The notes beneath the pieces were generated by a model. That model was not told where the DNA came from. It worked only from the letters and a program-made list of their open reading frames with translations, and did not search any database. The position numbers and the translations under genes are program-made. From assembly GCA_010092855.1 (NCBI GenBank), contig JAADYV010000300.1, forward strand, positions 1 through 33,480: a stretch of DNA of 33,480 nt. The letters are read 5' to 3'. The stretch is from Chloroflexota bacterium (GTDB lineage: Bacteria; Chloroflexota; Anaerolineae; Aggregatilineales; Aggregatilineaceae). Positions 2,744-3,232 of this stretch are shown here, piece by piece (positions within the stretch are counted from its first letter, which is position 1; each line of letters starts with the position of its first letter).

Positions 2744-3232
2744 GAACCGTTACCTTTTGCGGCGAGTACGTGCCGGTTGCACTGCCTGTATCCGCACAAA
2801 CGGAGGAAAGGGCGAGTAGACGCTGCGCCGTTCCCCCTCTCCGCACGCGGCTATTGGTTGCCATTATCTGTCTGGCTGGCCCAGCTATCGTAGTCAGGAA
2901 AGCGCTGCGCCCCATGCGCTGCGGGCTCAAAGCCGCGCAGCCACATCGAAAGGAAGTCTGCTGAAGCGACTCCTGCGTTTGGGTTCCTACGCATCCGTGT
3001 TGCCCACAACTAAGAACATTATTTTGCGGGAGATAGGAGTCACTTGAGTAGACTTGCATCCTACGTAGCGTGTGCGCTTCCAGTAGCGAAGCGGCTTTGA
3101 GCCACAGGCGGCGATGCGCAACTTCATTCCCCACCCGGAAAACGTGCGCTGCCTGACTTGTGGGTAATGTATGGCCGCGCACGGGGAGGGGGGGAGGGGC
3201 AAGGCTTCTCAAACGGTCTCTGAGTATGGCCA
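2744..3232. other. Intergenic region between nadD and obg with no credible gene
   Basis: This 489-bp gap has no convincing coding sequence. The open frames through it have no family-like composition and no usable ribosome site. Its main content is the nested inverted repeat at 2833-3192, described separately. No T-tract terminator is visible after obg, so read-through into nadD is possible. Confidence 0.6.
2833..3192. repeat. Large nested imperfect inverted repeat (possible structured RNA or decayed palindromic element)
   Basis: Four pairs of complementary arms are nested around a centre near 3005-3025. The outermost pair, 2833-2854 with 3171-3192, matches at 18 of 22 positions. The next, 2892-2898 with 3152-3158, is a perfect 7 bp. 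The third, 2924-2936 (GGCTCAAAGCCGC) with 3091-3103, is a perfect 13 bp. The innermost, 2954-2974 with 3035-3055, matches at 18 of 21 positions, leaving a 60-nt apical loop. As RNA this would form a rod of about 360 nt. Orientation, transcription and function are unknown. It could equally be a decayed mobile palindromic element. Confidence 0.6.

Follow-up and report, generated by a model that had tools for sequence, protein, structure and literature searches.

Di Nocera et al. (2013, PMC3733652) have reported GTAG repeats from Chloroflexi; in their scheme a GTAG inside the dimer marks the tail-to-tail type. They also mention REP dimers or elements inside larger palindromes in A. variabilis, T. 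roseum and H. neapolitanus. The feature described here resembles these dimers in its GTAG tag, its short GC hairpin with an inner GGC/GCC, its inverted pairs with inward tags, its intergenic location, its linkage to Y1 transposase genes and its dispersed units of high copy number. It differs in two ways: a unit here carries an additional hairpin, AGTC..GACT, on that side of the tag which faces the centre, and the outer palindrome is one that we identify as an IS50-type MITE sitting inside a further hairpin family. The comparison with REPINs and RAYTs (PMC3116915, PMC2817692) is close as well. Both have inverted REP pairs whose spacer is fairly constant in length but variable in sequence, and in relatives of our genome the same unit is found on either side of related Y1 genes. 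Unlike in those systems the tags face inward, no REP-flanked Y1 gene was found in the genome's own assembly (87% complete), and the Y1 proteins are IS200/IS605 transposases by NCBIfam, scoring below the cut-off of the RAYT model.

The IS50 subgroup of the IS4 family (Tn5) has a size range of 1350-1550 and duplications of 8-9 bp (PMC2266710). The 19-bp ends of our element fit the consensus of this subgroup, a 1.42 kb insertion sequence from a relative falls in its size range, and the transposase found in relatives has the Tn5 DNA-binding, DDE and dimerisation domains. The duplications here are slightly longer than those listed, however, at 10-11 bp; there is a strong preference for the loops of GC-rich hairpins, and the copy under study is miniature and non-coding. 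Tobes and Pareja (2006, PMC1525189) described insertion sequences with REP hairpins as their target, which likewise land inside palindromic repeats, but in our case the MITE sits as a guest in one hairpin family and itself hosts REP pairs. All the parts are of known kinds. What appears to be new is their combination and the identification of the enclosing palindrome as an IS50-type MITE; we found no prior description of the compound element in this lineage in the open-access literature.

The feature lies between obg and nadD, in a gap of about 490 nt (2744-3232) of the window, by which we mean the whole analysed stretch of 33,480 nt. The genome (G000), of Anaerolineae type within Chloroflexota, is 5.45 Mb in 662 contigs. 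The original prediction saw here four arm pairs around one centre that would form a long rod as RNA, and suggested that the feature could be a structured non-coding RNA, a palindromic element in decay, or a combination of the two. Our re-check finds the four arm pairs where they had been placed, with the same scores (18/22, 7/7, 13/13 and 18/21), but the single centre of symmetry does not hold. The arm midpoints are 3012.5, 3025, 3013.5 and 3004.5, and they differ because the arms come from different modules. A blind repeat finder reported the 13-bp arm pair and no other. As RNA, 2820-3200 folds at -178.3 kcal/mol on the plus strand (z -4.22) and -172.7 kcal/mol on the minus strand (z -6.19), with none of 100 shuffles as good on either, so both strands fold far more stably than shuffled sequence. 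We read the architecture as three nested palindromes: an outer hairpin (A), an IS50-type element (B) and a central REP pair (C). Their parts are listed in Table 1.

Table 1. Parts of the nested palindrome in the window, and duplications at related B elements.
Feature	Position	Strand	Remarks
Natural boundaries	2833-3192; 2851-3174; 2917-3110		everything; transposon-like part; REP pair
Layer A stem, left half, CCCCCTCTCC	2833-2842	.	pairs with 3185-3192
Putative target-site duplication, left, CCGCACGCGG	2841-2850	.	in loop of hairpin A; 8/10 to 3175-3184 by eye
Layer B, IS50/IS4-type MITE	2851-3174 (324 bp)	.	19-bp ends; same ends bound transposase DNA in L100, L221
B end, left, CTATTGGTTGCCATTATCT, decayed	2851-2869	+	13/19 to consensus CTATGCATTACCCATATCT (consensus from other copies; hand count)
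REP unit 1	2917-2972	-	model R1 79.8 bits, E 1.7e-18; local stems covary
REP unit 1, hairpin CTGCG..CGCAG	2919-2940
REP unit 1, tag	2941-2944		GTGG, a changed GTAG; CCAC on + strand
REP unit 1, hairpin AGTC..GACT	2954-2972
REP pair spacer	2973-3036 (64 nt)	.
REP unit 2	3037-3110	+	model R1 43.8 bits, E 2.1e-8
REP unit 2, hairpin	3037-3055
REP unit 2, GTAG tag	3065-3068
REP unit 2, hairpin	3069-3108		with loop insertion
B end, right, ACTTGTGGGTAATGTATGG on +	3156-3174	-	17/19 to B-end consensus ACTTGTGGGTAATGCATAG
Putative target-site duplication, right, CCGCGCACGG	3175-3184	.	8/10 to 2841-2850 by eye
Layer A stem, right half, GGAGGGGG	3185-3192	.	pairs with 2833-2842
Duplications at B elements of relatives			L033 CCGCCAGCGG; L083 CCCCTTGTGGG; L086 CCGCGTGTGG; L100 CCGACGCGGAG; L205 CTGTGTTTTGG; L244 CCACGTGGTGG

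The outermost arms are the two halves of a hairpin, CCCCTCTCC-N-GGAGAGGGG, and several relatives carry members of this hairpin family in numbers from tens to hundreds. By exact pattern the intact hairpin occurs 640 times in G016, 307 in G022, 195 in G006, 174 in G008 and 139 in G005, with 0-2 matches for the backward controls. The same pattern finds no intact hairpin in the genome under study, so layer A may have travelled with layer B there.

Directly inside layer A are the inverted ends of layer B, with the consensus CTATGCATTACCCACAAGT / AGATGTGGGTAATGCATAG. Compared by hand, CTATGCATTACCCACAAGT agrees at all fixed positions with the published IS50-subgroup consensus CW------Y---CA-A--W- (PMC2266710), while the left end in the window is decayed. 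Of 101 genomes from the family and order, 10 contain the right-end motif ACTTGTGGGTAATGCATAG, and the backward-pattern controls gave zero. In relatives, paired B ends sit in the loop of hairpin A with direct repeats of 9-11 bp on either side. A duplication score of at least 7 was reached by 7 of 20 B elements in relatives against 0.44 expected by permutation, and none of 5000 permutations reached the observed sum of scores; for the own genome p = 0.0014 (L017 is an example, TATGCTGTGTG/GATGCTGTGTG). This test, with ends fixed and lengths of 8-12, is the third of three versions tried: a fixed length of 10 gave a weak result, and allowing indels in the ends blurred it by shifted boundaries.

The ends also lead to a transposase. 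In L100 the B element is about 570 bp long, lies in a CCCCCTCT..AGGGGG hairpin with a duplication that matches at 11/11, and holds a Tn5-type DNA-binding domain (PF14706, E 2e-13), the remnant of a transposase. A near-complete IS50-type insertion sequence of 1.42 kb (L221:2461-3880; JALHNB010000027.1, the MAG Anaerolineae bacterium Bin_50_3) lies between the same B ends and has PF14706, DDE_Tnp_1 and Dimer_Tnp_Tn5 domains. It is apparently broken by one frameshift, it ends at the limit of the stretch read, and its long frame matches Tn5 transposase structures with E 4e-33.

Five contigs of another genome, G009, break at one identical insertion sequence end with layer-B termini (L069, L079, L088, L092, L096), which suggests a recent high-copy insertion sequence lost in assembly. 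The layer-B end pattern is also found in JALGUI01 and JALGVA01, MAGs titled Candidatus Zipacnadia (L199, L207, L215, L216, L228 and others), and therefore the group of insertion sequences with these ends may not be limited to Chloroflexota.

The core consists of two homologous GTAG-tagged REP units, inverted and tail-to-tail, inside layer B. Each unit is laid out as GAGTCGCTTCAGCAGACTT, about 9 nt, GTAG and CTGCGCGGCTTTGAGCCCGCAG, in other words a small hairpin, the tag and a second hairpin. In most copies of the own genome the two units stand about 60-65 nt apart, with a spacer that varies widely in sequence. An alignment of 36 units places GTAG at the foot of a short stem-loop. In this alignment the local hairpins reach 46 double-change cells where shuffles give 12.0, and their covariation score is 0.256 compared with 0.103 after shuffling (0 of 500 shuffles in both cases), although inherited subtypes may be partly behind this. 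The long-range inner arms behave differently: across 24 copies they have 14.17 of 19 matches within a copy versus 14.49 between copies (p = 0.98). Compensatory change, which the original prediction would have taken as support for an RNA if seen in relatives, is thus found in the short local REP hairpins but not in the two long inner arms. Judged from these alignments, it is the individual small hairpin that is maintained, not the 360-bp rod.

The hairpins of the REP units carry further repeats. A unit of CAGTAGCGAAGCGGCTTT is single in the hairpin loop of many copies, including the one in the window around 3081-3098, and forms a tandem array in a REP hairpin loop at a contig end (L141, G000:C17:1-110). 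In several REP pairs the inner right hairpin contains an inserted element, about 210-220 bp long and palindromic at its ends, TAGCTCGACTTTATCC...GGATAAAGTCGAGTTTAG (G000 contigs C122, C404, C75, C88 and C64; L008, L015, L026, L023 and L013). This is probably another MITE targeting REP hairpins.

The original prediction held that multiple genomic copies would speak for a mobile element, and dispersed copies are what we find. Searched with 2800-3215, the own genome gives 76 BLAST matches, the query included, and the better ones have 68-90% identity. The REP-unit model R1, which was built from units of this genome alone, has 79 matches in it. On sequence similarity, then, the feature is one of several dozen scattered, non-coding copies of mobile DNA in the genome.

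The same model reaches beyond the genome, with matches in 14 of 60 relatives, among them G038 (58), G025 (35), G006 (33) and G056 (31). The units there are often in the same tail-to-tail order, with spacers typical of each genome; in the named genome collection, an exact pattern for this REP core had no match. Y1 transposase genes have R1 units close to both gene ends in G038, G006, G049 and G056, and on one side of the gene in G025. The Y1 proteins of G038, G025, G006 and G049 score above the cut-off of the IS200 model NF033573, and reach 17-40 bits with the RAYT model NF047646, whose cut-off is 80. At L175 (G006:C290) a Y1 transposase gene adjoins seven clustered REP units that point in both directions, which resembles a REPtron/BIME. 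Three candidates in the own genome were rejected, as none has REP units around it: an IS605-type tnpA/tnpB pair (C221), an IS200-like gene with a stop (C572) and a weak match in a long frame (C401). PF14706 was not found in the own assembly (87% complete) either, and so the mobilisers are seen in relatives alone.

We located obg in 22 relatives and read the DNA downstream. In those that keep obg next to nadD, the two genes are about 0-170 nt apart with no copy of the element between them; some genomes have an extra open frame between the two genes (for example G004, and G005, G013 and G015 of one genus), and nadD was not found at the obg locus of a few of the 22. At this locus the element is therefore specific to the lineage, most probably as a passenger in the intergenic space.

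We believe it is highly probable that the palindrome is a decayed compound MITE, with an IS50-type shell set in a hairpin loop and a REP pair as its core, and that it is not a conserved RNA rod. The palindromic mobile element of the original prediction is borne out by the many genomic copies, the target-site duplications and the autonomous relative with the same ends. The sequences themselves show the nest, its dispersed copies, the 9-11 bp duplications and the transposase genes of relatives, and the absence of the element from this locus in relatives; which enzyme moved what and when is our inference. A REP-associated Y1 transposase would originally have spread the REP pair, and layer B would have been cut and pasted into hairpin loops, together with the REP pair it contains, by a Tn5-type transposase. 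The apparent 360-bp palindrome would then be a stack of inverted-repeat elements, each inserted in the middle of the previous one. Some observations count against this reading. The left B end in the window matches at 13/19 and the duplication at 8/10, and many copies in the own genome have no recognisable B ends. The duplications exceed the listed 8-9 bp, and neither intact A hairpins nor the two kinds of mobiliser were found in the own assembly (87% complete).

It could be argued that REP or REPIN-type mobility is enough, with a Y1 transposase spreading the REP pair and A and B being mere target palindromes, as has been reported for Anabaena variabilis and Thermomicrobium roseum. The GTAG tags, the tail-to-tail pairing and the REP-flanked Y1 genes are all consistent with this, and there is the published precedent of REP dimers inside palindromes (PMC3733652). 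Contigs C178 and C431 have B without the REP core, and C178 is otherwise near-identical to the copy on C198, as expected if the pair had inserted into a ready palindrome; short repeats at the junction allow slippage, however, and are compatible with either insertion or loss of the core. We nevertheless consider this explanation unlikely, since B appears to move on its own account. Genomes G013, G015 and G016 have the Tn5-type gene, the ends and the duplications in the absence of any R1-detectable unit, and there B encloses a different palindrome family. Another, independent Anaerolineae genome (L242) has B with a REP-like pair inside. Among 38 units examined in the own genome, 22 keep the outer segment next to the REP pair, while the left B end is recognisable in 13 and the right in 11. 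More than half thus share the same B-derived flank, which fits joint amplification, so the REP pair in this genome has mostly travelled with B-derived DNA.

The remaining alternatives give the fold a function at this locus. If transcribed, the element would form strong hairpins, and since obg and nadD are co-directional, read-through transcription is plausible. A structured non-coding or cis-acting RNA kept for its fold would account for the very low folding energy on both strands. Yet no curated Rfam family matches anywhere in the window at its gathering score, the readable gaps of relatives are empty of it, the long inner arms do not covary, and dozens of copies are dispersed through the genome. 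We regard a conserved RNA as very improbable, and the original proposal that the whole rod is one is not upheld. The element might instead have been recruited as a large bidirectional terminator or as a hairpin that stabilises mRNA, a role proposed for REP copies elsewhere. This suits its location between obg and nadD and deserves somewhat more credit, but it too is improbable. Relatives manage without the element, and such a role would be a secondary effect of the insertion that leaves the nest unexplained.

The compound MITE reading has consequences beyond this locus. The enclosing palindromes of REP dimers were reported in 2013 without their nature, and here one such palindrome proves to have ends of Tn5 type and target duplications, as well as an autonomous relative that is nearly complete. 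We tentatively suggest, as a possibility we would put at somewhat less than even, that nested palindromes in Anaerolineae build themselves: an IS50-type MITE would insert preferentially into hairpin repeats and would itself carry palindromes, REP pairs among them, and this stack would spread as a compound element by means of two unrelated transposases, a DDE enzyme of Tn5 type for the shell and a Y1 enzyme for the core. The compound MITE reading itself offers a concrete, testable route to long nested intergenic palindromes in bacteria, through serial insertion into hairpin loops and not through selection for a long RNA.
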